Positions 46,130 through 62,762 of a stretch of 64,000 bases of DNA are shown here, in pieces. The DNA is from Aminivibrio pyruvatiphilus (GTDB taxonomy: Bacteria; Synergistota; Synergistia; Synergistales; Aminobacteriaceae), in contig NZ_SORI01000010.1 of NCBI RefSeq assembly GCF_004366815.1, positions 1-64,000 of the forward strand, in the 5' to 3' direction. Every line of letters starts with the position of its first letter. Positions within the stretch are counted from its first letter, which is position 1. The notes under the pieces were generated by a model that did no database searches, had not been told where the DNA came from, and saw only the letters and a list, made by a program, of their open reading frames with translations. A program made the translations under genes and the position numbers.

Positions 46130-47956
46130 CTAGCTCATTTGGGAAAGAAATTCCTCCAGGCCGAGGGAGGCGATTTTGCCGGGCAGGGGAATTCCCTCCT
46201 CAGTCCACCCCCGTTCCGAATAATACTCCCGGAGCTGTGCTTCAAGGTCGGGAAGGGTATCCGCCGAACCTCCCGAGCCCCTGGTCTCCCGGAGAATTCT
46301 TTCGGGGAGAGAGTCATCCTTGGCAGAAAGACCGCAGCCCATGTTGTACAGCTTCTTGAGGTTGAATATCCTCTCACCTGCCGTCATAAGCTCCCTGTAG
46401 TCCATGTCCCAGCCGGTAACTCCGGCGATCCAGACGAGGAGGTCATCGATTCTCGTGGCCGCGAAGGGGAACTTGCACATCTTCAGCGAATCCACTACCC
46501 CCATGAGGTTCTGGAACCCCACGTTGATCTTGCCCTTCCCCTCGTCCAACGTCCGGTCAAGAACGGTATCCACTCCCAGTTCGGGGTACGTCATGCTCCT
46601 CTCGAAGGAATAGGAAAAGCCCGAGAGATGGCACGCTCCCCTGTTCGATGTCGCGTAGCCCGCCGCAAGGCTCTTGTAGCACCTTGGATCGTGGGCCGGG
46701 AAATCCATGCCCTTGGAGTGGATGGCATACTTTTCCGCCCCCTTGCCGATCTTTTCCGCAGCCTTTCGGGTACCTTCAGCAAGAACTGCACCGAATCCCC
46801 TTTTCTCAGAGATGTCGGTGAGGAACCTCACCATGGCTTCTCCGTCGCCCCACTTCAGCGGATATCCGACCGTCTTTTCGTCGATGATCCCCCGTTCGAA
46901 GAGCTCCATGGAAAAGGCTACCGCAGAACCTCCCGAAATAGTGTCGATTCCCATGCGGTTGCAGAGGTCGTTTCCCCTCCCGATGGCCTTCAGATCACTG
47001 ATGAGGCAGTTGCTTCCGAGCATCCCTATGGTCTCATACTCGGGACCTGCTCCTGATATGCCGTCAAAGGCCACTTCCCTTCCGCACCGGATGGGACAGG
47101 CCACGCATCCCCAGTTTCCCGTAAGGATGGTTTCGGCCATGGCCTCTCCGGTTATGCTCTTCACTTCTTCGGGCCAGCTTCCCATGCTCCAGTTCTTCAG
47201 GGGGAGATCGCCGTTCTGCTCAGCCAGGGCAACCCCTCCGGCCGTTCCGAAACGGGTCATGGCTGGCAGTTTTTCCATATAGAACTTCGCTTTCTCCGCT
47301 GATTTTCCCCGGACCCTTTTCTCGTCAGCCATGACTGTCCTGCCGTTCCCTCTGGCCACGACCGCCTTGAGGTTTTTGGACCCCATGACTGCCCCCATCC
47401 CGCCCCTGCCGGCAGCCCGGGCGTTCCGCCCGTCGTGCATAATATTCGCCAGGAGCACCATCCGCTCTCCCGCCGGACCGATGCAGGCCACGCCTGCGGG
47501 TTTTCCCACAGCGGCAAAGAGAGCCTCCTCCGTCTCGAAGGTGTCCTTCCCCCAGAGGGACGTCCCGTCCCTTATCTCCACCCTGCCGTCGAGAACAGCC
47601 ACGTATACGGGGGAGGAAGCCTTTCCGAGAAAAACAAGACCGTCATATCCGGCCCTTTTCAGATGGAATCCGAAGGCTCCTCCGCAGTCGGACTCTCCGA
47701 AGGCATCCGTCAGGGGTGACTTGCTTATTACCTGGTGACGCCCGGAGGTGGGAATTCCCGTTCCCTGGAAGGGGCCGTTCATGAAAATAAGGGGATTGTC
47801 GGGCGAGAGAGGGTTCCCCGCCGGAGATCCGTACCTGAAAAGAAGGTATGTCCCGAGGCCTGAACCTCCGATGAATTTCCGGACCACCGATTCCGGAACG
47901 GTAAGGTCTTCCGCTGTCCTGGACGTCAGGTGCACAAGAGCCACTTTCATTTCCAT
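46130..47956 (-). CDS. aor: Aldehyde:ferredoxin oxidoreductase
   Basis: This 608-residue protein is an AOR-family tungstoenzyme. It has the N-terminal pterin-binding domain (RKFIGGSGLGTYLLF; SGRHQVISKSPLTDAFGESDCGGAFG; RAAGRGGMGAVMGSKNLKA), the iron-sulfur cysteines in WGCVACPIRCG, and a later conserved DSLKMCKF cysteine. Such enzymes oxidise aldehydes to acids with reduction of ferredoxin; in amino-acid fermenters they clear aldehydes from 2-oxoacid decarboxylation. It lies 37 bp after a pair of half-size chromate-transporter genes and is probably cotranscribed with them. Confidence 0.93.
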   Translation of the reverse strand: MEMKVALVHLTSRTAEDLTVPESVVRKFIGGSGLGTYLLFRYGSPAGNPLSPDNPLIFMNGPFQGTGIPTSGRHQVISKSPLTDAFGESDCGGAFGFHLKRAGYDGLVFLGKASSPVYVAVLDGRVEIRDGTSLWGKDTFETEEALFAAVGKPAGVACIGPAGERMVLLANIMHDGRNARAAGRGGMGAVMGSKNLKAVVARGNGRTVMADEKRVRGKSAEKAKFYMEKLPAMTRFGTAGGVALAEQNGDLPLKNWSMGSWPEEVKSITGEAMAETILTGNWGCVACPIRCGREVAFDGISGAGPEYETIGMLGSNCLISDLKAIGRGNDLCNRMGIDTISGGSAVAFSMELFERGIIDEKTVGYPLKWGDGEAMVRFLTDISEKRGFGAVLAEGTRKAAEKIGKGAEKYAIHSKGMDFPAHDPRCYKSLAAGYATSNRGACHLSGFSYSFERSMTYPELGVDTVLDRTLDEGKGKINVGFQNLMGVVDSLKMCKFPFAATRIDDLLVWIAGVTGWDMDYRELMTAGERIFNLKKLYNMGCGLSAKDDSLPERILRETRGSGGSADTLPDLEAQLREYYSERGWTEEGIPLPGKIASLGLEEFLSQMS

Positions 47957-47993
47957 TAGCGAATCATCCTTTCAGGAGCTGAAGATTCATTTT

Positions 47994-48527
47994 CTAAAGA
48001 AGAACCATGCCCGCCGCCCCAGCGGCAAGAAGAAGAAGCTGGGGGTATTTTCTGAAGGGGAAAAACCTGGACATCCCGAAAAGAACGAGGGTGAAAGGCC
48101 AGAGTCTCCAGTCACCCGCCAGGGGACGGACCACCATCCAGAACGCGCCGAACAGCATGGCGGCCACAACCGGGCGAAGAGCTTTCTGCACCCGCTCCGC
48201 CCCTGCTTTCATCCGTCCGGACGCCCTGGAAAGGAGCCACGCGGCAACGGCGACGAGGGCAAGGGGCGCGGCCACCACGGCAAGCGTCGCCACCAGGGAA
48301 CCGGCAAAGCCTGCAAGCCGATAGCCTACGTACGTTGCCGCATTGACCGCCACAGGCCCCGGAGTCATCTGGGCCAGGGAGACCACCTCGGCAAACTCCC
48401 TCTCACTAAGCCACGCATGGGAGGCGACGAGTTCATGGTGGATGAAGGGGATTGTCGCCAGCCCTCCGCCGAAGGCGCCGAGACCGATGCGGATGAAGGT
48501 AAAAAAGAGAACGGAAAGAACGCTCAT
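47994..48527 (-). CDS. Chromate-transporter-like half protein (second of pair)
   Basis: The 177-residue membrane protein is a single ChrA domain: IGLGAFGGGLATIPFIHHELV, SLAQMTPGPVAVNAATYVG and four to six hydrophobic helices. Short ChrA proteins are encoded as tandem pairs that together equal one full transporter. The ATG at 48527 overlaps the stop of its partner as ATGA, so the two are made in step. Transport of chromate or another oxyanion is the family role; in this setting the natural substrate is unknown. Confidence 0.88.
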   Translation of the reverse strand: MSVLSVLFFTFIRIGLGAFGGGLATIPFIHHELVASHAWLSEREFAEVVSLAQMTPGPVAVNAATYVGYRLAGFAGSLVATLAVVAAPLALVAVAAWLLSRASGRMKAGAERVQKALRPVVAAMLFGAFWMVVRPLAGDWRLWPFTLVLFGMSRFFPFRKYPQLLLLAAGAAGMVLL

Positions 48528-49057
48528 TCCGGCTTCCCGTCCCCGAGGGCGAGGCGGAGCGCCGCTCCCGCACCGAGGGCTATGAACGGATGGAGCCCAA
48601 AACCGAGGAGAACGGCCGATACAAGGGCGAAGACAACCATATCCTTCCATCCTCCGGAAAAGGAAATCCGGGTCATATCGTAGACTACTCCCCCGATGAT
48701 CACCGCCACCGCACAGGCCGCTCCGAGAAAGAACGCCCGGACGGAAGGCGTGTTCAGAAAAAGAAGAAGGACCTTCGCCAGGAAGAGAATGGTGAGGAAG
48801 GGCGGAAGGACCGTGCCGGCAACAGCAACGATCGCACCTGCCTTTCCGGCCAGTTTCCGGCCCGCCAGGAGAGCGAGGTTGACAGCGATGGGACCGGGAA
48901 AAGCGGTGGCGAAAATCATCATGTCCATGATCTCGCCCGGGGCAAAACGGTCCGTCTCCCGGAGCTCCCTTTCGAGGAGGCCCATCATCACGATTCCTCC
49001 GCCGAAAGTAAAGGCTCCCAGGCGGAGGAAGAGCAGAAAAACTCTTGCGAGAGACAT
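48524..49057 (-). CDS. Chromate-transporter-like half protein (first of pair)
   Basis: This 177-residue membrane protein has LRLGAFTFGGGIVMMGLLEREL and ATAFPGPIAVNLALLAGRKLAG, the ChrA half-domain pattern, with about five hydrophobic helices. It is the upstream member of an antiparallel pair. I chose ATG 49057 (MSLARVFL) because the longer frame begins with a non-membrane, arginine-rich stretch. It follows a thioredoxin-like gene by 64 bp. Confidence 0.86.
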   Translation of the reverse strand: MSLARVFLLFLRLGAFTFGGGIVMMGLLERELRETDRFAPGEIMDMMIFATAFPGPIAVNLALLAGRKLAGKAGAIVAVAGTVLPPFLTILFLAKVLLLFLNTPSVRAFFLGAACAVAVIIGGVVYDMTRISFSGGWKDMVVFALVSAVLLGFGLHPFIALGAGAALRLALGDGKPE

Positions 49058-49121
49058 CAGCCCATCCCGGTCTCCCCGGGGAAATTCCGCGGAATTGCCA
49101 TGCCCCGGCCAGCTCCCGGCG

Positions 49122-49622
49122 TCATGAAGAAAACGCGGCAAGGATGGCGATGAACTGTTCCTGGATCAGTCCGTTGAATTTTCCCCTGCGGTATTCCAGA
49201 GTCATGGCGCTTCTTTCTCCCGGGTCGGCATCCCGCATCTCCTCTTTCAGGCCGTCAGGAAGCTCCACGTATTTCCCCCGGAGGTTCATGTCCCCGTCGA
49301 AGAAGAGCAGCGTAGGTATCCTGGCGGCTCCAGTGAAAGCCTCAAGATCCTTCGCCCAGGGCTCCCGCTCGAACACCGCCAGGCGGATGAGCGGGTTGAG
49401 GTCCGCAGCCCTTTTCACAAAGGGCATGGTCACTACCGTGTCCGGGCAGTAGATTTCGGCGAAGGCAGCAAGGTTGACGGGCTGCTTCACGCCCTTCACG
49501 GCCTCTTCGAACTCCGGGGTGAAGACGGTTCGTTCGCAGGCTCTTTTCTGCCGGTCCCGCTCTTCCTCGTACCCCTTCCGGAAGTACTCCTCCAGAGAAT
49601 ATCCTTTTGAAAAGTCGATCAT
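49122..49622 (-). CDS. Thioredoxin-family protein without CxxC
   Basis: This 166-residue protein resembles the Thioredoxin_9 group of small thioredoxin-fold proteins: FAEIYCPDTVVTMPFVKRAADLNPLIRLAVFE and IPTLLFFDGDMNLRGKYVELP. At the active site it has a lone cysteine followed by PDT instead of CxxC, so classical disulfide exchange is unlikely. A charged N-terminal helix precedes the fold. It lies upstream of the chromate-transporter and AOR genes in the same direction. Confidence 0.75.
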   Translation of the reverse strand: MIDFSKGYSLEEYFRKGYEEERDRQKRACERTVFTPEFEEAVKGVKQPVNLAAFAEIYCPDTVVTMPFVKRAADLNPLIRLAVFEREPWAKDLEAFTGAARIPTLLFFDGDMNLRGKYVELPDGLKEEMRDADPGERSAMTLEYRRGKFNGLIQEQFIAILAAFSS

Positions 49623-49702
49623 AGTGATTTTCACCCCCGAATACTGGCTGAACGTTTTATTTATTATCTCACAGATCAGAAACTCCCTGCCGTGCTTTCT
49701 GC

Positions 49703-50279: not shown

Positions 50280-51707
50280 TCATTGCCCTTCTTCACGCTC
50301 CGCCTTGCCCGCATGCCCTCCGTGAAGGTTACCCCGGAACCATGAGAAGAAGACCCCCAGAAAACACAACAGGGAGGAAATGGAAAAACTGATCTTCACC
50401 ACGACGAGAAAGGTGCCGTACCGTTCGGGAGTGATCTGCTCGCTCCCGAGCAGTGCGGCGAAGACCACGGTGATAACCGCCATGCTGGTCATCTGTCCCA
50501 GCACCCGCATGGTGCCCACAGAGCCTGAGGCCGCACCGTAAAACCTCGACGGAACGGAACCCATTATGGCGTTCGTGTTCGGCGAGGAAAAAAAGGCAAA
50601 ACCGAGGCCGAGCAGAATAAGAGCCGTAAAAATGAAGGCCATGGGCGTTTCCCTGCCGAGAAAGGCAAAAATGGTAAGTCCGAGGGCGGTGGACAGCATG
50701 CCCCCCGATGCGAGCAGTCCCGGCTCAATCCTGTCCGAAAGTTTTCCGGTATAGGGAGAGAGAAAAGCCTGCAGAAGAGGCTGGGTTACCATGACCACCC
50801 CCGCCTCCGACGGGGACATGCCCTTGATGTACTGAAGGTACAGGCTGAGAAGAAAGGCCACGGAGTAGGTGGCGGCATAGTTGATCAGCGCTGCCGCGTT
50901 GGAAAAGGCAAAAACCCGGTTTCCGGAAAAAAGACGGATCTCGAACAGCGGGTCTTCAGACCGAAGCATCCTCCGGATAAAGACCGCAAAAAGAACGCCT
51001 CCCGCAGCCATGAGAGATATTCCCCAGACGGACGGAAGAATGGAAGCTCCGTACATGACGGCGACGAGAGAGGCCCCGTAGATGAAACAGCCGGGAAGAT
51101 CGAGCCGTTTGCTGCTCCCCTCCCGCCATTCAAAGGGAACCCGTGTTTTCAGCAGGAAAATTGAGACTGCCCCGAGAAGGGCGTTCACGTAAAAGACCGA
51201 GGCCCATCCGAAGGCCGCGATGAGAAGGCCGCCGAAAAAAGGCCCCGCGGAAGACCCAAGGTAGATGGACGCCACGTTGACACCGAGGGCTTTCCCCCGC
51301 TCCGCCGACGGGAAAACGGAGGTCAGAATGGCCATGCCCATGGTCAGCATCAGGGAACCTCCCGCTCCCTGCACCGCCCTGAGAAAGATGAAGAAAGGCA
51401 TGGTGGGCGCCAGGGGACAGAGAATCGTTGAAACGATGAATATCCATGTTCCGAGAACAAGGATGCGCTTTCGTCCCCAGATATCCCCCATTTTTCCCGC
51501 CGGGATCAGGAAGACCGCCGAAGAAAGCAGGTATGAGGTGGCCACCCAGCTCAGCCACACGGCGCTCGCACTGTACGCCTGCTGAATGGAGGGCAGGGCG
51601 ATGTTCACCGAAGAGAGCATGAAGGGCGGCAGAAAGGCGGTCAGCGCCGCAACCGCGAGGACGGCGTTCTTCGAAATGTCGGGGGACTGGTTTCCTGTAC
51701 GGACCAT
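50280..51707 (-). CDS. MFS drug:H+ antiporter (DHA2 type) exporter
   Basis: This 475-residue protein has about 14 hydrophobic helices and the MFS signatures: motif D1-like MLSSVNIALPSIQQAYSASAVWLSWVATSYLL, motif A GKMGDIWGRKRILVLG, and motif C-like GSSAGPFFGGLLI. This is the DHA2 (QacA/EmrB) pattern of drug efflux pumps. The chosen ATG at 51707 has only a weak ribosome site. The upstream promoter (TTGGCA, 16 bp, TATTCT) is bordered by an 11-bp inverted repeat that could be a regulator site. No local TetR or MarR gene is present. Confidence 0.85.
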   Translation of the reverse strand: MVRTGNQSPDISKNAVLAVAALTAFLPPFMLSSVNIALPSIQQAYSASAVWLSWVATSYLLSSAVFLIPAGKMGDIWGRKRILVLGTWIFIVSTILCPLAPTMPFFIFLRAVQGAGGSLMLTMGMAILTSVFPSAERGKALGVNVASIYLGSSAGPFFGGLLIAAFGWASVFYVNALLGAVSIFLLKTRVPFEWREGSSKRLDLPGCFIYGASLVAVMYGASILPSVWGISLMAAGGVLFAVFIRRMLRSEDPLFEIRLFSGNRVFAFSNAAALINYAATYSVAFLLSLYLQYIKGMSPSEAGVVMVTQPLLQAFLSPYTGKLSDRIEPGLLASGGMLSTALGLTIFAFLGRETPMAFIFTALILLGLGFAFFSSPNTNAIMGSVPSRFYGAASGSVGTMRVLGQMTSMAVITVVFAALLGSEQITPERYGTFLVVVKISFSISSLLCFLGVFFSWFRGNLHGGHAGKAEREEGQ

Positions 51708-51744
51708 GGGGCACCACTCGCTTTTTCCTGAACTTGAGAGTAAT

Positions 51745-51897: not shown

Positions 51898-52485
51898 TTA
51901 CTGCCCGAAAAGCTTCATTCCCGCGGCGAAGGCCCTTTCATTGACCTCCACGGCACGGGGAGGAACACAGGCCCGGAGCGTCCTGCCCCAGTCCATGCCG
52001 TCCAGCCCCAGGGTCTTCACAACCGTACCGAGAAGGACCATGTTCATCACTTTCGGGTTTCCGAGTTCCTCCGCCGTTTTTGCCGCTTCCACCAGAAGGG
52101 TCCCGGGAGCGGCGGCTGAAAGGGTTTTTTCGATCTCCCGGGGATATTCCGCCTGGCCAAGGATCACCGGCATGGGAAAGATTTCATGGTTGTTCACAAT
52201 CAGCCTGCCGCCGGAAGAAAGGTACGGAAGCCAGCGGAGAGCCTCCATTTTCTCAAAGGCCACCACCACGTCGGCCTCCCCCCTGCAGATGACCGGGGAA
52301 TACACTTTTTCCCCGTACCTCACGTGGGTCGACACGCTGCCGCCCCTCTGGGCCATGCCGTGAATCTCCGACATCTTGACGTCATAGCCGAAGGAAAGAA
52401 GGCCCTCCGTCAGCACCTTGCTCGCGAGGATGGTCCCCTGACCGCCGACACCCACGAGCAGAACATTCCTGGTCTTTGCGTTCAT
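51898..52485 (-). CDS. iorB: Indolepyruvate:ferredoxin oxidoreductase beta subunit
   Basis: This 195-residue protein is the gamma/beta-type pyruvate-ferredoxin-oxidoreductase domain: VLLVGVGGQGTILASKVL, MSEIHGMAQRGGSVSTHVRYG and VNNHEIFP. With IorA it oxidatively decarboxylates aryl pyruvates from Phe, Tyr and Trp to aryl-acetyl-CoA with reduction of ferredoxin. The start overlaps the iorA stop as ATGA. Confidence 0.95.
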   Translation of the reverse strand: MNAKTRNVLLVGVGGQGTILASKVLTEGLLSFGYDVKMSEIHGMAQRGGSVSTHVRYGEKVYSPVICRGEADVVVAFEKMEALRWLPYLSSGGRLIVNNHEIFPMPVILGQAEYPREIEKTLSAAAPGTLLVEAAKTAEELGNPKVMNMVLLGTVVKTLGLDGMDWGRTLRACVPPRAVEVNERAFAAGMKLFGQ

Positions 52486-54251
52486 CGGGCGTCTCCTTCC
52501 CTTCCAATGGCGTTCTTCGGGCAGACCTGGACGCACAGGCCGCATCCGTTGCAGGCCGCCCGGTCGATGACGACACGGCCGTCCCGTTTCGTGATGGCGG
52601 GGCAGCCGAGTTTCAGACACGCACCGCAGAGAACGCATCGTTCTTCGTCGACGGAACACTTCAGTCCTGCCCGCTCCTTCTGCACATCCTTCAGCAGCGC
52701 ACAGGGACGGGTGGTCACGATGACAGACGTCTCTTCCGCCGCCCAGGCCCTGTCCACAGCTTCGGCGGATGCCTTCAGGTCGTAGGGGTCAACCACGTGG
52801 ATATTCTCCCCTTTCACTCCGCAGGCTTCGCAGATCTTCGGAATGTCCAGCGCAACGGTCTCCTCTCCTGAAAGAGTTCTGCCCGATCCTGGATTTTCCT
52901 GCTGGCCCGTCATGGCGGTGATCCTGTTGTCCATTATGACGAACACTCCCCGGGACTTGTTCACCACCGCGTCGATGAGGCCGGTGATACCGGAGTGGAA
53001 GAACGTGGAATCTCCCAGGATTCCGAAAACCTTCTCATTCCTGCCCGCCTTCTCGCCGGCTTTCTGGAAGCCGATGGCTGCGGAAAAGCCCGCGCCCATG
53101 CAGATGGTGGTCTCTCCCACGTTGAGAGGAGGCATGGAGCCGAGGCCGTAGCAGCCTATATCCCCCGTGACGATCACATCTTTTTTTTTGCTCAGGGGAA
53201 AGAACAACCCCCTGTGGGGGCACCCCGGGCAAAGGAGGGGCGGCCTGTTCGGCGGCGGAACCTCCCCTTCCCGTCCCGGGGCGGGTTCTTTCCCCAGGAC
53301 CGCGCGGGCGACGATCGCCGGGGTGAGTTCATCCACCACGGGCAGGACGTCCTTCCCGAAGCAGGGAATTCCCATGGCCCGAATTTCCGTTTCGAGAAAG
53401 GGGTCGTTCTCCTCAACCACCCAGAGGGTCTTCACTTTCGAGGCAAACTCCCGGATGAGCCTTCGCGGAAGCGGCCATGAAAAGCCTATCTTCAGAAAAC
53501 TCGCCCCGTCCCCCAGGGCTTCCCTGGCATACTGATACCCGACACCCGAGGCGATTACCCCGATCTCGGATCCTTCGGCCATTGTCACGGAATTGAAGGG
53601 GGATGATTCCCCGAATTCTCTCAATTCCTCAAGCCGCTTTTCAACCATATGGTGCTTCTGCCTCGCGAAGGCGGGCAGCATGGCGTTTTTCGCCGGGTTT
53701 CTTTCGTACTCCCTGACGGGAAGTTCGATCCGCTCACCTGTCTCAACCACGCTCTTGCTGTGGCATATCCTGGTGGTGAGCCTCAGGAGGACGGGCGTAT
53801 CGAACCCTTCGGAAATCTCGAAGGCAGCCCTGGTGAAATCGAGGCATTCCTGGCTGTCGGAGGGCTCGAGCATGGGCACCTTCGCGTGAAGGGCGTACCA
53901 ACGGTTGTCCTGTTCGTTCTGGGAACTCGAGAGCCCCGGGTCGTCCGCGGAGACGATGACCAGTCCCCCGTTCACTCCGATGTAGGACATGGTGAAAAAC
54001 GGATCCGCCGCTACGTTCAGCCCCACATGCTTCATGGCGCACAGCGCCCGGGCGCCCGCTATGGAGGCTCCTGATGCCACTTCAAGGGCAACCTTCTCAT
54101 TGGGGGACCACTCGGAATACACTTCGGGAAATCGTGCGATGTTCTCGAGTATCTCCGTGCTGGGCGTTCCGGGATAGGCGGCGGCCACATGGCCCCCTGC
54201 CTCCCAGGCTCCCCTGGCTACGGCTTCGTTGCCGGTCAGTATCACTTTCAT
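52482..54251 (-). CDS. iorA: Indolepyruvate:ferredoxin oxidoreductase alpha subunit
   Basis: This 589-residue protein has the pyrimidine-binding half (GNEAVARGAWEAGGHVAAAYPGTPSTEILENIA) and the TPP-binding half (CPGCPHRGLFF; VTGDIGCYGLGSMPPLN; GILGDSTFFHSGITGL). A C-terminal two-cluster ferredoxin domain holds CVLCGACLKLGC and CNGCGLCVQVC. It forms the complex with IorB for oxidation of aromatic 2-oxoacids. AAAAGGAGCGACC precedes the ATG. A dyad overlapping its inferred -10 is shared with the neighbouring regulator gene. Confidence 0.96.
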   Translation of the reverse strand: MKVILTGNEAVARGAWEAGGHVAAAYPGTPSTEILENIARFPEVYSEWSPNEKVALEVASGASIAGARALCAMKHVGLNVAADPFFTMSYIGVNGGLVIVSADDPGLSSSQNEQDNRWYALHAKVPMLEPSDSQECLDFTRAAFEISEGFDTPVLLRLTTRICHSKSVVETGERIELPVREYERNPAKNAMLPAFARQKHHMVEKRLEELREFGESSPFNSVTMAEGSEIGVIASGVGYQYAREALGDGASFLKIGFSWPLPRRLIREFASKVKTLWVVEENDPFLETEIRAMGIPCFGKDVLPVVDELTPAIVARAVLGKEPAPGREGEVPPPNRPPLLCPGCPHRGLFFPLSKKKDVIVTGDIGCYGLGSMPPLNVGETTICMGAGFSAAIGFQKAGEKAGRNEKVFGILGDSTFFHSGITGLIDAVVNKSRGVFVIMDNRITAMTGQQENPGSGRTLSGEETVALDIPKICEACGVKGENIHVVDPYDLKASAEAVDRAWAAEETSVIVTTRPCALLKDVQKERAGLKCSVDEERCVLCGACLKLGCPAITKRDGRVVIDRAACNGCGLCVQVCPKNAIGREGDAR

Positions 54252-54293: not shown

Positions 54294-54314
54294 GTGATAA
54301 TAATTTTTTATCAC
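54294..54314. promoter_or_regulatory. Operator-like dyad upstream of iorA
   Basis: Perfect seven-base arms GTGATAA (54294-54300) and TTATCAC (54308-54314) flank a 7-bp AT-rich centre. A near copy lies upstream of the adjacent PAS/HTH regulator gene; 17 of 21 positions match and the core AATTTTTTATCA is identical. It overlaps the inferred iorA -10. Confidence 0.7.
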
Positions 54315-54333
54315 ACAGAGGCCTTTTCCGCAA
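54305..54333 (-). promoter_or_regulatory. Candidate promoter of iorAB
   Basis: The minus strand shows TTGCGG (54328-54333), 17 bp, TAAAAA (54305-54310). The hexamers are weak, but the spacing matches the register of the regulator's own promoter relative to its dyad. Confidence 0.5.
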
Positions 54334-54334
54334 C

Positions 54335-54365
54335 AAAAAAAGAGATTCTCTGCGGAATCTCTTTT
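54335..54365 (-). terminator. Terminator of the PAS/HTH regulator gene
   Basis: Eleven-base arms (54338-54348 with 54355-54365) and a 6-nt loop are flanked by A and T runs, so it should work in the minus direction and perhaps both. It lies 34 bp past the regulator's stop. Confidence 0.85.
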
Positions 54366-54398
54366 CGCCTTCCGGAAAGAAACCGGGTGCCGGGAAGA

Positions 54399-55106
54399 TC
54401 ATCCCTTCTTCAGGTACCTGTACACGGTCGCCTCCGAGACTCCCAGGCGCCGGGCGACTTTCTGCACCGCCCCCTTCATGGAAAAGAGATGCCTTCCTTT
54501 CAGAACGCCCACAAACCTGGTCCTCTCTTCCGGGGTCATCACCCCGGGGGGTGCTGAAAATTCCGAGGCTGCCTTCTCTATCAGCACATCCATGAGGCCG
54601 TCAAGGTTCGATTCCTTCTCCGCAGGGAAAAATTCTTCCAGCGGCGCGGGTTCTTCTTCCTTTCCCGGAAGCGGCGATCTGCCCGAAAGGCCGTTCAGCA
54701 TGCGAATTTTCTCATGGAGGGTATCATGAAGGCGAATAAGGTCCGTGACGTCGTGATTCGCGCATATCATGCCCCGGAGTTCCCCCTGCTCATCCTTGAT
54801 GAAAAAGGTGTGCGATTCCAGGATCCGGTTGTCCCTGGTCCTGTCCATGTGGGCGACCATGTCCTCGCTGCAGCCGCCGCTCTGGATCAGCTTGACGAAG
54901 GTCGGGGCATAGTCGGACATGGTGCTTCCGACGGAACGGCCGCTGATCTGCCCGTTCCGTATGGCGATGATGGAAGCTTCCGGCCTGGACACGTCATGGA
55001 GCACCAGTTCGTATTCGGGGCCGCAGACCTCGGCGAAAAAATCGAGAAGCGGAATGTATTTTTCCAGAAACTCCCGGTTTCCGGATGTCTGGCCTTCAGT
55101 TTTCAT
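54399..55106 (-). CDS. YheO/DauR-type PAS and helix-turn-helix regulator, probable regulator of iorAB
   Basis: This 235-residue protein has the YheO-like PAS domain (residues 10-125: CGPEYELVLHDVSRPEASIIAIRNGQISGRSVGS; SHTFFIKDEQGELRGMICANHDVT). A C-terminal helix-turn-helix of the HTH_22 class follows (VQKVARRLGVSEATVYRYLKK). Relatives such as DauR control amino-acid catabolic operons. GGAAGGGATGGCG precedes the ATG. Its promoter carries a dyad nearly identical to the one at iorA, at the same distance from the inferred -10, so it probably regulates itself and iorAB. The ligand could be an aromatic amino or oxo acid. Confidence 0.85.
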   Translation of the reverse strand: MKTEGQTSGNREFLEKYIPLLDFFAEVCGPEYELVLHDVSRPEASIIAIRNGQISGRSVGSTMSDYAPTFVKLIQSGGCSEDMVAHMDRTRDNRILESHTFFIKDEQGELRGMICANHDVTDLIRLHDTLHEKIRMLNGLSGRSPLPGKEEEPAPLEEFFPAEKESNLDGLMDVLIEKAASEFSAPPGVMTPEERTRFVGVLKGRHLFSMKGAVQKVARRLGVSEATVYRYLKKG

Positions 55107-55142
55107 GCTGCGCCATCCCTTCCGTGCAAAATCTTTTGTTGA

Positions 55143-55163
55143 CTGATAAAAAATTCATATCAT
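55143..55163. promoter_or_regulatory. Operator-like dyad upstream of the PAS/HTH regulator gene
   Basis: On the minus strand TGATA and TATCA halves flank GAATTTTT-like sequence. It matches 17 of 21 bases of the plus strand of the iorA site and overlaps the regulator's inferred -10. Confidence 0.65.
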
Positions 55164-55182
55164 TTTTCCGCTCTGCTGTAAA
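55154..55182 (-). promoter_or_regulatory. Promoter of the PAS/HTH regulator gene
   Basis: The minus strand shows TTTACA (55177-55182), 17 bp, TATGAA (55154-55159), about 48 bp before the start codon. The dyad overlaps the -10. Confidence 0.6.
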
Positions 55183-56531: not shown

Positions 56532-56550
56532 CCGGCGAAGAAAACGCCGG
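56532..56550. repeat. Inverted repeat upstream of the serine dehydratase -10
   Basis: Six-base arms CCGGCG/CGCCGG (56532-56537, 56545-56550) flank AAGAAAA and end three bases before the -10. An operator is possible. Confidence 0.4.
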
Positions 56551-56553
56551 TGG

Positions 56554-56559
56554 TATACT
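56554..56559 (+). promoter_or_regulatory. Extended -10 of the serine dehydratase gene
   Basis: TGGTATACT gives a TG-extended -10 (TATACT), about 42 bp before the ATG at 56601. No good -35 is seen. Confidence 0.45.
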
Positions 56560-56600
56560 TTTGGAGGACCACATTCTCCTTCCCGGAGGTGACGGCGGCA

Positions 56601-58148
56601 ATGAAAAAGGTAAGCATACTGAATCATGTAATAGGGCCTGTGATGAGAGGCCCCTCGAGCTCCCACACCGCAGGCCCGTGGCGAATCGGCCGCATGGCGG
56701 CAAACCTCCTCGGCGCACCCCCGGAACGGGCCCTTTTCACCTTCCATCCTTCCAGCTCCCTGGCGGTCTGTTTCCATGAGCAGGGCAGCGACCTTGCCTT
56801 TGCGGCAGGGCTCCTCGGCCGTCCGCTCACGGATCCCGATTTTTCCCGGACCCTCTTCCGGGCACCGGATCTCGGACTTGACGTCCGCTTCGAGAAGTTC
56901 CCTTTTCCAGAAGCCGACCATCCGAACAGCTCCCTGCTCCGCCTCTCCGGAGGAGGAAAGGAACTGGTCATACACAGCAGATCCACCGGAGGCGGCTCTT
57001 TTGAAATCGCTTCCGTCAACGGCTGTCCTGCGGACATCACGGGAGAATCCTTCGTCTTTCTCCTTGAAGGGCAGCGGGAGGAAGATCTGAAGCATGCCTC
57101 CGTTATCGCTGAAGAATGCGGATGGGAAACCTCCGTTCGCCGGGGTTCCGGGGGACCGGTGCTCTTCGGCAAATCCTCCGCTCCCCTTCCCGAAACCGCC
57201 AGGGAAACCCTTGCCCGGAACGGGACCCGGTTCTTCAACGCCGATCCTGTCATGCTGCCCATGCCAGGAGAACCTCTTTTTTCCTGTGTTTCAGGGCTGC
57301 TCTCCCTTGCGGCGGAAAAAGGATGGTCTCTCGGCCGCGCTGCCCTTGCGTCGGAGGCCTCTCTCCTGGGTGTGCCGGAAAAGGATCTTATGGATGAGAT
57401 GGAACGCCGCCTCGACATCATGCTCACAGCGGTAAGAAAGGGACTGGCAGGGGATTTTTCCTCCATGAAGCTGCTCACCCCCATGGCGCAAAGGCTCTGG
57501 AATTCGGAAAAGAAGGGCGCTCTTTTCACCGGAGGGCCTCACGCCAGGGCCGCCATACGGTCCCTGGCGGCCCTCCACGTCTGCTCTTCCGGCGGCGTGG
57601 TATGTGCGGCCCCAACCGGCGGTGCTGCCGGTGTTCTCCCCGGAGTGGCGGCCACCCTGGCGGAGGATTTCGGCATCACAGGGGAGAGGCTCCTGCTGTC
57701 CCTCTGGGCCGCCGGAGCCGTGGGGTACCTCCACGACCTCAGAAGCACCTTCGCGGCGGAGGTGGCGGGATGCCAGGTGGAGATCGGGGCGGCGGGAGCC
57801 ATGGCCGCAGCGGCTGCGGCTGAGGCTGCGGGAGGAACGGCACGGCAGGGGTGCGACGCGGCGGCCACAGTGTTCCAGAATGTCATGGGGTCGGTGTGCG
57901 ACCTCGTCCAGGGAGTGGTGGAAATACCCTGCCACAGCCGAAACGCCTCCCTCGCCTCCCAGGCGTTTCTCTGCGCCGACCTGGTCCTCGGCGGATATGA
58001 AAACCCGGTTCCCCTGGATGAAACCATCGACGCGGTGGACAGGGCAGGACGGATGCTTCCGGAGGAACTGCGATGCACATCCCGGGGAGGCCTCGCACTC
58101 TGCCCTTCGGCCCTTGCACTTCCCCGGCTCGATACGGGGACACACTAA
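56601..58148 (+). CDS. sdaA: L-serine dehydratase, iron-sulfur dependent, single chain
   Basis: This 515-residue protein joins the beta-domain (GPVMRGPSSSHTAGPWRIGRMA) and alpha-domain of iron-sulfur serine dehydratases. The cluster cysteines appear in ALHVCSSGGVVCAAPTGGAAG, AEVAGCQVEIGAAGAMAAAAA and VCDLVQGVVEIPCHSRNA. It converts L-serine to pyruvate and ammonia in the cytosol. The ATG at 56601 has GGAGGTGACGGCGGCA upstream. Compared with typical SdaA the alpha domain lacks some conserved residues before the first cluster cysteine. It is followed 21 bp later by a crotonase-fold gene. Confidence 0.9.
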   Translation: MKKVSILNHVIGPVMRGPSSSHTAGPWRIGRMAANLLGAPPERALFTFHPSSSLAVCFHEQGSDLAFAAGLLGRPLTDPDFSRTLFRAPDLGLDVRFEKFPFPEADHPNSSLLRLSGGGKELVIHSRSTGGGSFEIASVNGCPADITGESFVFLLEGQREEDLKHASVIAEECGWETSVRRGSGGPVLFGKSSAPLPETARETLARNGTRFFNADPVMLPMPGEPLFSCVSGLLSLAAEKGWSLGRAALASEASLLGVPEKDLMDEMERRLDIMLTAVRKGLAGDFSSMKLLTPMAQRLWNSEKKGALFTGGPHARAAIRSLAALHVCSSGGVVCAAPTGGAAGVLPGVAATLAEDFGITGERLLLSLWAAGAVGYLHDLRSTFAAEVAGCQVEIGAAGAMAAAAAAEAAGGTARQGCDAAATVFQNVMGSVCDLVQGVVEIPCHSRNASLASQAFLCADLVLGGYENPVPLDETIDAVDRAGRMLPEELRCTSRGGLALCPSALALPRLDTGTH

Positions 58149-58169
58149 ATTCACAAGGAGGAACACAAC

Positions 58170-58940
58170 ATGCCGGCAGTTTTATGGGAAAGAAGCGATG
58201 GCGTAGGCTCCATCACCCTCAACCGCCCCGAGGCCATGAACACCTTCAATACGGAACTCGCAGCCGAACTGAACGATGCGCTCCGCACCATGGAATCCGA
58301 CGACGCCGTGCGGGCCGTCGTTCTCTCCGGTGCGGGAAAACATTTCTCCACGGGAATCGACCTCAGGGAGTATCTGACAAAGGAACGGCATGAGATCAGG
58401 GGTTTTCTCTCGCTCATGAACATCCACAACCACACCCTTGCGGCCATGACGAAACCCGTCATCGCCTCGGTGCAGGGATACGCCCTGGCCAACGGGACTG
58501 GGCTTGCCCTCGCCTGCGACTTTGTCGTGGCGTCGGAAGACGCCGTCTTCGGCACCACCGCGGTGAACGTGGGCCTCATCTGCCTGGAACCGGGACACCA
58601 GCTCGCGCGGTGGATCGGTGAAAAAAGGGCCCTTCAGTATGTTCTCACCGGGGACCTCATACCGGCTTCCAAAGGAAAGGAACTTGGTTTTGTTTATGCC
58701 GTGACGGAAAAAGAAAAACTCGAAGAAAACTCCCTGGCCCTGGCGGCACGGCTGGCCTCGAAGAGCAGGCTCTCGGTCCGCACAGGGAAAAGGGGCTTCG
58801 CCGCCATGTCCGGTCTCCCCGTTGAGCGGGCTGTGGAGGCCGGCGGCGAGCTGTTCGCCGCCCTGGCGTCCTCCGAGGACGGAAGGGAAGGCGTGGAAGC
58901 CTTCCTCGCCAAGCGCCCCGCGGCATTCAGGGGAAGGTAG
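58170..58940 (+). CDS. Crotonase-fold protein lacking both hydratase glutamates
   Basis: This 256-residue protein has the enoyl-CoA hydratase/isomerase fold: [40 protein letters not shown] and [23 protein letters not shown]. In true hydratases two glutamates sit in GGGCELA and PEI; here they are Gly111 and Ala131 (FGTTAVNVG), so hydration of enoyl-CoA is unlikely. Isomerase, decarboxylase or hydrolase activity on an acyl-CoA is possible. CACAAGGAGGAACACAAC precedes the ATG. It lies between sdaA and a ybjQ-like gene, all in the same direction. Confidence 0.82.
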
Positions 58941-58960
58941 CAGAAAGGGGATTCCAGCAG

Positions 58961-59284
58961 ATGATCATTACCACGACGCACACCATTGAAGGCAAGAGTA
59001 TCACATCATACAGGGGGATCGTCTTCGGTGAAGTCATCGCCGGGGCGAACTTCATGAAGGACTTTAAGGCAAGCCTCACGAATTTTTTCGGCGGCCGGTC
59101 CGGGGCCTATGAAAAAGAGCTCACCGAGGCCAGGGAAGCCGCCCTGAAGGAAATGGAACAGCGGGCTGCCGGGCTGGGAGCCAACGCCATCGTGGGCATG
59201 CTGGTCCACTACGAAGTGCTCGGCAGCAACGGAAGCAACATGCTCATGGTCTCCACCTGCGGTACGGCGGTGCGGACGGACTGA
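58961..59284 (+). CDS. YbjQ/UPF0145-family protein
   Basis: This 107-residue protein matches the UPF0145 family throughout: [73 protein letters not shown] and STCGTAV. The family forms pentameric beta barrels of unknown function. It follows the crotonase-fold gene by 20 bp. Confidence 0.9.
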
Positions 59285-59319
59285 CCGGGAGCGGAGCGGG
59301 CGCCGCGAACGGTTACCTC

Positions 59320-60582
59320 CTAGAGGTCGTCCCTCCACAGCGGCATGGTGGAACACCGGGGACCTCCCCCGCCCTTCACCAGCTCGTCCGCTTCCACGGG
59401 GACCACGTTGATGCCGGCCTTTTCCAGGGCCCGGATGGTTCCCGTATTCCTGTCCCAGATGCACACCTTGCCGGGCTCCAGCGTGAAGGTATTTCCGCCG
59501 GAGCCCGCTCTCTGTTCGGCGAAGGCCACCGCTTCGCTCTCGCTGCCCCCCACTTTGACGATCCGGAGGGACGACAGCTTCAGCACTTTCCGGATGGCCC
59601 CGAAAAGAGAGTTTTCCCTGGTGATCCTGAGCCGGTCACCCCGTCCCCGGGTAATGTGAAGCACCGTGATTTTCTTTTCAATATAGGGGAAAAAGAGAAA
59701 GGCATCGTGGTCGATCATGTTCAGGAACATGTCAACGTGGACTGTGAGCCCGATGGAATCCTGGGGACCGAGCCTGGGATTTTCGAAAAGGAGGGCGAGC
59801 ACGTCGGTAATGTGCCCCGATTCCATGGTCCGTCGTGCGATTCGCTCGATGGATTCGGGGTGAGTCCTTTCGTTCACCCCGACAACAAATACGTTCGGGC
59901 TGTAGCAGTGGATGTTGCCTCCTTCGACAGGCCTGTCGTCACCTTCGGCGGAGCCGTACCATGTTTTGAACCCCGTGTCCTTCAACAGGGGGTGATGTTT
60001 GAAAAGAGCCTTCACGCAGGCAGGCTCCTTCATCCTGTCTCTGTTCAGCATCCTGCCGAAAACCACCCCTTCCCCGAGAACGGCTGCGGAATCCCGGGAA
60101 TAGAGCACGTTCGTCATGGGGAAAAGGCACCATTCGTCCCGCCTGTCGGCCAGGTCATGCAGGGAGACCTCCCCGGTCTCCCTGTTGAGTTCATCCTTCG
60201 TCATGCCGAAAAAAAGCCGGTCCACCATGTCCCGGGGGGACATCCCCAGAAGGTATTCCCGGAGCACTTCCAGTGTCTGGGCCGTCACACAGGGCCGTTC
60301 AGTCTCCAGTATGGAAGGCAGGACATCTTCCCTCACCCCCGGAAGGGCGAAAATTTCCCGGAGCAGATCCTCGAAAACCAGGACCCCGGCACCGAAGGAG
60401 CGAACCGTCTCCACCCACTTTCGGTGCTCTTCCGCCGCCTTTCCGGGGCTGGGCACCGCATCCCAGGCGAAGGAACCGATATTGAGGGGGGTACACCGCT
60501 CGATGCCCTTTCCGGGAGGCTGCATTATCACCGCCCGGAGCTTTCCGATTTCCGAATTCACCCTGATCTTCAGCCCCGACAC
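59320..60582 (-). CDS. arcA: Arginine deiminase
   Basis: The 420-residue protein is an arginine deiminase, hydrolysing L-arginine to L-citrulline and ammonia. Landmarks are the N-terminal SEIGKLRAVIMQPPGKGIER, TNVLYSRDSAA (substrate Asp), VEGGNIHCY, the His-Asp element LTVHVDMFLNMIDHD, and the catalytic cysteine in GGGGPRCSTMPL. The last motif has Arg where many homologues have His. It lies 28 bp after a cysteine-synthase-like gene and is probably cotranscribed with it. arcB and arcC are not in the window. Divergent from it lies a 2,4-diaminopentanoate dehydrogenase-like gene, consistent with use of the arginine-ornithine route. Confidence 0.93.
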   Translation of the reverse strand: MSGLKIRVNSEIGKLRAVIMQPPGKGIERCTPLNIGSFAWDAVPSPGKAAEEHRKWVETVRSFGAGVLVFEDLLREIFALPGVREDVLPSILETERPCVTAQTLEVLREYLLGMSPRDMVDRLFFGMTKDELNRETGEVSLHDLADRRDEWCLFPMTNVLYSRDSAAVLGEGVVFGRMLNRDRMKEPACVKALFKHHPLLKDTGFKTWYGSAEGDDRPVEGGNIHCYSPNVFVVGVNERTHPESIERIARRTMESGHITDVLALLFENPRLGPQDSIGLTVHVDMFLNMIDHDAFLFFPYIEKKITVLHITRGRGDRLRITRENSLFGAIRKVLKLSSLRIVKVGGSESEAVAFAEQRAGSGGNTFTLEPGKVCIWDRNTGTIRALEKAGINVVPVEADELVKGGGGPRCSTMPLWRDDL

Positions 60583-60610
60583 AGGCGTTCCTCCTTTTTC
60601 TTGAACCGCT

Positions 60611-61570
60611 TCAGCGGTAGAGGTCCGTACTCAGGTACTTCAGCCCTGAATCGCACACGAGAAAAACGACGTTCTTTCCATATTCCTTTCCCCTGAGCAG
60701 TCCGGCCGCCGCCTGCAGGTTCGCCCCGGAAGAGAAGCCGGCGAAAATACCCTCCAGGCGGGCAAGGGCTCTCGCTCCTTCCGCGGCTTCCTCGCTGCTT
60801 ACAGTCAGGTAGCCGTCCACAAGGGCAGGGTCAATGAAGGGAAGGTCCCTGCTGTACCCCCCGCCCTGAATCTTGTGATTCGCGTTTGTCACTTTCCTGC
60901 CCGCAAGAAAGGCGGCGGTGTCAGGCTCCACCACATAGCACCGTATGGACGGTTTGAGTTTCTTCAGGGCTCGGGAGCAGCCGGCAAATGAACCTCCGGT
61001 TCCGGCGAAATCCGCGAAGGCGTCGATCCTGCCCTCCGTCTGTTCCCATATTTCTCTCCCCGTCCCGAACTCGTGGGCCCTGACATTGCTTTCCAGGGCA
61101 AACTGGTCCGCCCGGAAGGCATTCCTTTCGCGGACGATCCGCTGCGCTTCCTCCTCCACCAGGGCCAGGTCGATGCCCGAAACCTGCCCCGGCTGCGATC
61201 CCGGCGCCTGTTCCACCAGGACGACTTCAGCCCCGAGGGCAGACATCATCCTGGCCCGCTCCATGGAATTCCCCCTGGACATGACAGCGGTGAAGGGATA
61301 GCCTTTGACTGCACAGACAATGGCAAGCCCGGTTCCCGTATTTCCGCTTGTCAGCTCCACGACGTTCTGCCCCGGAGAAAGTTCTCCCGACGCCTCGGCC
61401 TCTTCAATCATTCTGAGGGCTATCCGGTCTTTTTTGCTGAATCCGGGGTTCAGATATTCGAGCTTGCCGTACAGCCCGCCGCTCAGTCCCCATTCTGAGG
61501 CCAGCCGGTCAAGCCGCACCAGGTGCGTGCTGCCTATGGCCTGAAGTACGCTGTCCAAAACCCTATTCAT
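60611..61570 (-). CDS. Cysteine-synthase-family PLP enzyme
   Basis: This 319-residue protein has the CysK fold: the PLP lysine in NPGFSKKDRIA, VVELTSGNTGTGLAI (phosphate cup), FADFAGTGGSFAGCSRAL and NANHKIQGGGYSRDLPF. The last motif departs from the usual HKIQGIGAGF. It could make cysteine from O-acetylserine, but the changed loop and its place before arcA leave room for another beta-replacement substrate. The ATG at 61570 is preceded by GAGGAGTGGGGGATTG; a TTG just before it is less likely. Confidence 0.83.
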   Translation of the reverse strand: MNRVLDSVLQAIGSTHLVRLDRLASEWGLSGGLYGKLEYLNPGFSKKDRIALRMIEEAEASGELSPGQNVVELTSGNTGTGLAIVCAVKGYPFTAVMSRGNSMERARMMSALGAEVVLVEQAPGSQPGQVSGIDLALVEEEAQRIVRERNAFRADQFALESNVRAHEFGTGREIWEQTEGRIDAFADFAGTGGSFAGCSRALKKLKPSIRCYVVEPDTAAFLAGRKVTNANHKIQGGGYSRDLPFIDPALVDGYLTVSSEEAAEGARALARLEGIFAGFSSGANLQAAAGLLRGKEYGKNVVFLVCDSGLKYLSTDLYR

Positions 61571-61633
61571 CAATCCCCCACTCCTCTCCGCCCCTGCATG
61601 TCGAGGTCAGTTCCCGCAGGCCGGCTGAATTTT

Positions 61634-61685
61634 GACACTACTATCATATCGCATTCTCGCATTGACACGGTGTCCTGGAGACACC
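61634..61685 (+). promoter_or_regulatory. GACAC half-site cluster and dyad in the ord promoter
   Basis: GACAC occurs at 61634-61638, 61664-61668 and 61680-61684, and GTGTC at 61670-61674. The last two form the perfect dyad GGTGTC-CTGGA-GACACC (61669-61685), which lies between the -35 and -10. The layout suits repressor control of this divergent region. Confidence 0.5.
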
Positions 61686-61690
61686 ATACT
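61662..61690 (+). promoter_or_regulatory. Promoter of the diaminopentanoate dehydrogenase gene
   Basis: TTGACA (61662-61667), 17 bp, CATACT (61685-61690). The spacer holds the GACAC dyad. The leader to the ATG at 61728 is about 30 nt. Confidence 0.7.
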
Positions 61691-61727
61691 TTTCGTGCAT
61701 CATAAACCCGGGCGGAGGTGGCGTGCA

Positions 61728-62762
61728 ATGGAACCGATAAGAGCTGTCATATGGGGACTCGGAACGATGGGCTCGCTCATGGCGAAAATACTCTCTGAAA
61801 AGGAAGGAATCGAAATAACCGGTGCCGTGGATCTGAACCCGAACAAAACAGGAAAATCTCTGGGAGCAATAACAGGCTCCTCCCGCCACGGCGAAATTAC
61901 GGTGACAGCGGATGCCGGGGAGGCGCTGGCACAGGAAGCGGACCTCGTCCTCCTGGCCACATCCTCGTTTATCAGTGAAACCGCGGAACCTGTCAGGCAG
62001 ATAGTGAAAAGCGGCAAAAACGTGATCACCATTGCCGAAGAATGGGCCTTTCCCCGCCGGACAGCCCCGAAAGTGGCAGAGGAAATCGACCGGCTCGCGA
62101 AAACTTTCGGCGTCACCGTCCTGGGAACGGGCGTGAATCCGGGATTCGTGCTCGATACGCTGATAATATCCCTTTCCGGAACCTGTGCGGGGGTAAGCAA
62201 AATAACCGCCAGGCGGGTGAACGACCTTTCACCCTTCGGCCCGACAGTAATGGCAAGCCAGGGAATCGGCCTCTCGCCAGAAGAATTCGGGAAAGGACTC
62301 GAAAACGGCGCCATCTCAGGCCACATCGGCTTCGAACAATCAATACACATGATCGCCTCTTCCCTGGGGATCAGGCTGGAAAGAATCACCCAGTCCCTTG
62401 AACCCATCATATCCCGTACTTCACGAAAGACCCCCTGCGTGAGCATCTCCCCCGGGCAGGTCGCTGGCTGCAATCACCGGGCAGAGGGATGGTCGGACGG
62501 CAGGCCCGTCATCATTCTCGAACATCCCCAGCAGGTTCACCCGGAAACCGAAAACGTCGAGACCGGAGATTTCATCCACATTGAAGGCAGACCGGACATC
62601 CGGCTCGCAATCCAGCCCGAGATACCTGGGGGAACAGCCACGGCAGCCCTTGCCGTCAACATGATCCCTCATGTTCTGAATGCCCCGGCGGGTCTTGCCT
62701 GCATGGCCGACCTTCCGGTTCCCTCAGCGAGGCTTGCTGATTTCCGGCAGTTTCTGAAATAA
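61728..62762 (+). CDS. ord: 2,4-diaminopentanoate dehydrogenase-like protein (ornithine fermentation)
   Basis: This 344-residue protein is a dihydrodipicolinate-reductase-like NAD(P)-dependent amine dehydrogenase. It has an N-terminal Rossmann motif WGLGTMGSLMAKIL (GxGxxG at 10-15), DLNPNKTGKSLG after it, and NVITIAEEWAFP, LGTGVNPGFVLD and the C-terminal GGTATAALAVNMIPHVLNAPAGL. These resemble Ord, which oxidatively deaminates 2,4-diaminopentanoate in the oxidative branch of ornithine fermentation. GGCGGAGGTGGCGTGCA precedes the ATG. The partner genes ortAB and oraSE are not in the window, so the assignment rests on sequence pattern alone. Divergence from arcA supports an arginine/ornithine role. 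Confidence 0.75.
   Translation: MEPIRAVIWGLGTMGSLMAKILSEKEGIEITGAVDLNPNKTGKSLGAITGSSRHGEITVTADAGEALAQEADLVLLATSSFISETAEPVRQIVKSGKNVITIAEEWAFPRRTAPKVAEEIDRLAKTFGVTVLGTGVNPGFVLDTLIISLSGTCAGVSKITARRVNDLSPFGPTVMASQGIGLSPEEFGKGLENGAISGHIGFEQSIHMIASSLGIRLERITQSLEPIISRTSRKTPCVSISPGQVAGCNHRAEGWSDGRPVIILEHPQQVHPETENVETGDFIHIEGRPDIRLAIQPEIPGGTATAALAVNMIPHVLNAPAGLACMADLPVPSARLADFRQFLK

Follow-up and report, generated by a model that had tools for sequence, protein, structure and literature searches.

A conserved dyad at two promoters predicts local control of iorAB and of its own gene by a YheO-type PAS/HTH regulator in Synergistaceae

YheO-type PAS/HTH regulators are widespread yet almost uncharacterised. 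CfiR (Cj1387c) of Campylobacter jejuni, a PAS6-HTH protein of the YheO-like kind, represses the L-PSP gene next to it, and deletion of cfiR raises the level of that gene's product, as seen by proteomics (PMC4519771). A term search of the same paper (PMC4519771) found no inverted repeat and no autoregulation. CfiR and the regulator described here are alike in domain architecture and, as we predict, in local control of a neighbouring gene, but differ in what is controlled: for CfiR a RidA/L-PSP protein that takes part in flagellar interactions, and in the present case, by prediction, iorAB. The neighbours of our regulator are iorA and a gene for a 390-residue protein without Pfam match; unlike CfiR-CfiP, there is no L-PSP/RidA gene. 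DauR of Pseudomonas aeruginosa belongs to dauBAR, which serves D-arginine catabolism. Both proteins are YheO-type regulators linked to metabolic genes, DauR to an amino-acid catabolic operon and ours to iorAB; their catabolic targets differ, and no dauBA-like genes were found among the neighbours examined at our locus. Escherichia coli YheO is of the same domain family (of 14 control genomes, E. coli alone had a PF08348 match), and to our knowledge its function and targets have not been established. In design, the locus resembles classical local autoregulated repressors, with operators at the regulator's own gene and at a neighbouring operon in the same -10 register, but differs from them in protein family (PAS_6-HTH_22) and in the enzyme controlled. 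Literature searches gave neither a YheO-family operator nor a link between YheO and ior genes, in line with the original prediction, which knew of no described regulator with such a site for iorAB. The regulon is a well-supported prediction, new but built on a familiar plan; for this regulator family little is known of operators or ligands.

The locus lies in a 64,000-nucleotide stretch of DNA (the window; contig C10 of the genome we label G000) from a 3.35-Mb genome of the family Synergistaceae, whose nearest named relatives are the uncultured isolates LM3-B4.3, LM3-B13.2, Syner_01 and UR.bin68. On the minus strand the gene order is regulator, iorA, iorB, MFS transporter, thioredoxin-like gene, two chromate-transporter half genes and aldehyde ferredoxin oxidoreductase, with the regulator and iorA in tandem. 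The regulator gene (54399..55106, minus strand) encodes 235 residues. Its N-terminal part matches PF08348 (PAS_6, YheO-like) at 107 bits against a cut-off of 27, and its C-terminal part PF13309 (HTH_22) at 66.2 bits against 29.6, which bears out the earlier description of a YheO/DauR-type regulator adjoining iorA. An AlphaFold2 model joins a PAS fold to a helical C-terminal domain, with pLDDT of about 77-94 across the PAS part and a whole-model pTM of 0.55. The top structural matches of the model in the PDB are PAS/LOV domains; a sequence search of the PDB with the regulator found no relative.

The genes iorA (52482..54251, minus strand; TIGR03336, 713.7 bits, cut-off 650.9) and iorB (51898..52485, minus strand; NF005325, 272.1 bits, cut-off 230) encode the alpha and beta subunits of indolepyruvate ferredoxin oxidoreductase and overlap by four bases. 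Both exceed their family-model cut-offs, making this a bona fide iorA by model; aromatic 2-oxoacid oxidation is, as read from family assignment alone, the predicted target function. The genome holds two further iorA genes, at C1:208009-209841 and C2:175295-177106, the three being 38-41% identical. TIGR03336 scores for the three paralogues are 714, 661 and 562 (cut-off 651), so that one of the two copies outside the window passes and one misses. The paralogues probably differ in substrate, and the operator pattern described below was not found at the two other copies. The MFS transporter gene 3' of iorB (50280..51713, minus strand; PF07690 and synteny) possibly shares the iorB transcript. The Thioredoxin_9, chromate-transporter and aldehyde ferredoxin oxidoreductase genes (46130..49628, minus strand) are downstream neighbours kept by synteny in relatives, and the whole-genome pattern search found no operator copy in this block. 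Next door, at 56550-62762 of the window, amino-acid fermentation genes are clustered: a single-chain serine dehydratase (beta+alpha), enoyl-CoA hydratase, an arginine deiminase-like and a cysteine-synthase-like gene, and 2,4-diaminopentanoate dehydrogenase.

Between the regulator and iorA is a putative intrinsic terminator (54335..54366, minus strand), a 12-bp hairpin followed by a run of seven T (-13.5 kcal/mol, z -2.35) directly 5' of the iorA -35 element. It is discernible in same-genus genomes only, and a strict promoter/terminator scan made no call for it. To judge by the hairpin and T run, regulator and iorA are probably transcribed separately, each from a promoter of its own.

Two putative operators lie at these promoters, both identified as such by conservation. 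Operator 1, at the iorA promoter (54294..54314, minus strand), is a 21-bp dyad reading GTGATAAAAAATTATTATCAC on the coding strand and GTGATAATAATTTTTTATCAC on the forward strand; its GTGATAA/TTATCAC arms are perfect, as originally described. Operator 2 (55143..55163, minus strand), at the regulator's own promoter, reads ATGATATGAATTTTTTATCAG as the reverse complement of the forward strand. The reported match of the two dyads at 17 of 21 bases, with an identical 12-base core AATTTTTTATCA, proved exact on re-reading. Since regulator and iorA are transcribed in the same direction, this core has opposite orientations at the two promoters relative to transcription, and the match of coding strand with coding strand is 15/21. 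For a site that is a dyad, this matters little. The inferred iorA promoter has a -35 TTGCGG (54328..54333, minus strand) and, within operator 1, a -10 TAAAAA (54305..54310, minus strand) that is weak by consensus; that of the regulator has a -35 TTTACA (55177..55182, minus strand) and, within operator 2, a -10 TATGAA (55154..55159, minus strand). Both spacers are 17 bp. With dyad centres at 54304 and 55153, both -10 elements occupy positions 1-6 upstream of the centre, and the identical register claimed for them is thus upheld by the coordinates. Both -10 elements are weak, as the last T is missing, and neither promoter was called in a strict sigma-70 scan.

With up to three mismatches allowed, the pattern TGATANNAATTTTTTATCA should occur by chance 0.03 times in a window; four strand-matches were observed, all at the two dyads. 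Across the whole 3.35-Mb genome the same search returned the two dyads and one weak match at the three-mismatch limit, and no scatter of sites over the genome. Composition nevertheless gives some ground for caution. In 2000 dinucleotide shuffles of the two AT-rich intergenic stretches, a pair matching at 17/21 or better arose 44 times and an iorA dyad of equal quality 23 times, so the support from a single genome is modest. We take cross-genome conservation, not composition, to be decisive for the reality of the pair. A third genome site (C1:78401-78419, near a radical-SAM gene) was set aside, as its core differs. The palindrome TGATAACAAAATGTTATCA stands at G002:C58:21583-21601 and, with one mismatch, at this C1 position, in each case beside a radical-SAM gene; conserved in two same-genus genomes, it is probably another regulator's site. 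Lone pattern matches in G036 and, within an ORF, in G012 appear coincidental.

We searched 83 family genomes for the pattern and compared the loci around the matches. Six genomes, from two genera of Synergistaceae, have the regulator beside a window-type iorA (G000, G001, G002, G003, G061 and G062). The iorA site is kept in all six and the regulator site in five (G000, G001, G002, G061 and G062). Taking flanks as 45 bp on each side, 16 of 19 core columns of the iorA site are invariant over six genomes, against 11 of 90 in the flanks; for the regulator site the figures over five genomes are 19/19 and 14/90, and many of the invariant flank columns are -35 elements. The iorA promoter retains GTTGC in six genomes and the regulator promoter CTTTACA in five, with the 17-bp spacing unchanged in all site-bearing genomes. 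In G061 and G062, which are of the other genus and whose regulator and iorA are about 77-79% identical to those of the window, both 19-bp cores are identical to the window's at 19/19 positions while the flanks match at 24-32 of 90, near random. The pattern therefore recurs, strongly constrained, upstream of orthologous iorA and regulator genes.

The site pair was not found in G028 and G012, which have the regulator without adjacent iorA, in G021, which has an iorA 75% identical without adjacent regulator, or in G004, which has neither orthologue. The two sites thus exist, are constrained, are confined to the locus and are present only where regulator and iorA adjoin; the regulon appears from these comparisons to be just two promoters, the regulator's and that of iorA. 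At the G028 locus (L101, 12229-15389) the regulator directly abuts the thioredoxin/chromate/AOR genes and iorAB with the MFS gene is missing, which amounts to a natural deletion of the presumed target. G003 keeps the iorA site, but its regulator-promoter site is eroded. G003 and G028 retain the regulator promoter, but the operator half beyond the -10 is eroded there, the left half (with the -10) keeping 7-8 of 10 positions and the right half 4 of 11. This suggests that autoregulation has been lost in G003 and G028; as G003 has kept the iorA site without the other, autoregulation would not be universal.

We propose, with a probability of roughly 0.75, that a local YheO-type repressor acts over both -10 elements, shutting off itself and iorAB until released by a pathway metabolite. 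A dimer of the regulator would bind the palindrome TGATAWRAAWTTWTTATCA, which at each promoter spans the -10 together with the start region. Bound at its own gene it would block RNA polymerase and give negative autoregulation; bound at the separately transcribed iorAB unit it would give local repression. The PAS_6 domain would sense a ligand, on which the repressor would be released. That the YheO-type regulator itself binds both dyads is, on the genomic evidence, very likely. That it represses is probable, because the sites overlap the -10 and the relative CfiR acts as a repressor. The ligand would most plausibly be a metabolite linked to the 2-oxoacids oxidised by IorAB, or to their amino-acid precursors, given the IorAB function assigned by family models; an aromatic 2-oxoacid or amino acid as inducer is a tentative suggestion. 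Of the autoregulated repressor originally predicted, the sites at both promoters stand, conserved with the gene pair; the own-promoter site is lost in G003, and binding and sign are predictions from sequence.

An unlinked regulator controlling both promoters, such as a CRP/FNR-, Fur- or ArgR-like protein, could in principle use the same sites. With their AT-rich TGATAA/TTATCA arms, the sites bear a superficial likeness to several global operators, and the YheO-type protein is the binder that we infer. A global regulator would, however, have many sites, while the genome has only these two, which vanish when the local gene pair is lost. The arms TGATA/TATCA are moreover separated by nine bases, a gap with which TGTGA-N6-TCACA and the 7-1-7 Fur box are incompatible. 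We consider an unlinked regulator unlikely. Scarcely more probable is that the YheO-type regulator activates from these sites or is a dual regulator switched by its ligand. The sign of control is unreadable from sequence and both promoters have weak -10 elements; but the sites lie over the -10 and start point and not upstream of the -35, which is the geometry of a repressor, and CfiR is a repressor (PMC4519771).

It could also be argued that no protein operator is present, and that an AT-rich core promoter with its initial transcribed sequence, or a 5'-leader RNA hairpin, has been conserved, since the -10 elements lie inside the sites and the iorA dyad as RNA folds into a 7-bp stem. The right arm, however, extends past the -10, symmetric with the left, and in G003 and G028 it is the half bearing the -10 that has outlasted the other. 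The leader fold is no better than in shuffles (z -1.13) and, since the dyad encloses the -10, its left arm would fall outside the transcript. This explanation is very improbable.

The pairing of this regulator family with ior genes extends beyond this branch. A neighbourhood search of 61 relatives brought the genomes with a YheO-iorA neighbourhood to 13 in all, the others (G010, G017, G020, G043, G047, G055 and G059) having regulators 26-38% identical to the window's. Mapped onto the regulator tree, adjacency to iorA requires four changes, of which well-supported branches force three. This implies that, within the order, YheO regulators came to adjoin iorA no fewer than three times and that the pairing arose more than once. 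The window-type dyad was not found upstream of the pairs in those seven genomes, which is what the differing recognition helices of their regulators would lead one to expect. The G028 and G012 regulators have an almost unchanged recognition helix (SEATVYRYLKR) without an adjacent copy of the site, and would therefore have other or weaker targets. More speculatively, the YheO-type PAS_6 proteins of Synergistota may be dedicated ior sensors, repeatedly paired with iorAB, with TGATAWRAAWTTWTTATCA as the first operator of one branch and an amino-acid-derived 2-oxoacid as ligand. The operator pair, its target and the recurrent link to iorAB offer a direct route to the ligand of the PAS domain, and the locus a route to how amino-acid-fermenting Synergistaceae control 2-oxoacid oxidation. 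Near the start of a distant YheO regulator (G031, L012), just past a TTGACA-type promoter, stands a shorter dyad, TGATAAAAACTTATCA, which is possibly the operator of that regulator's branch.
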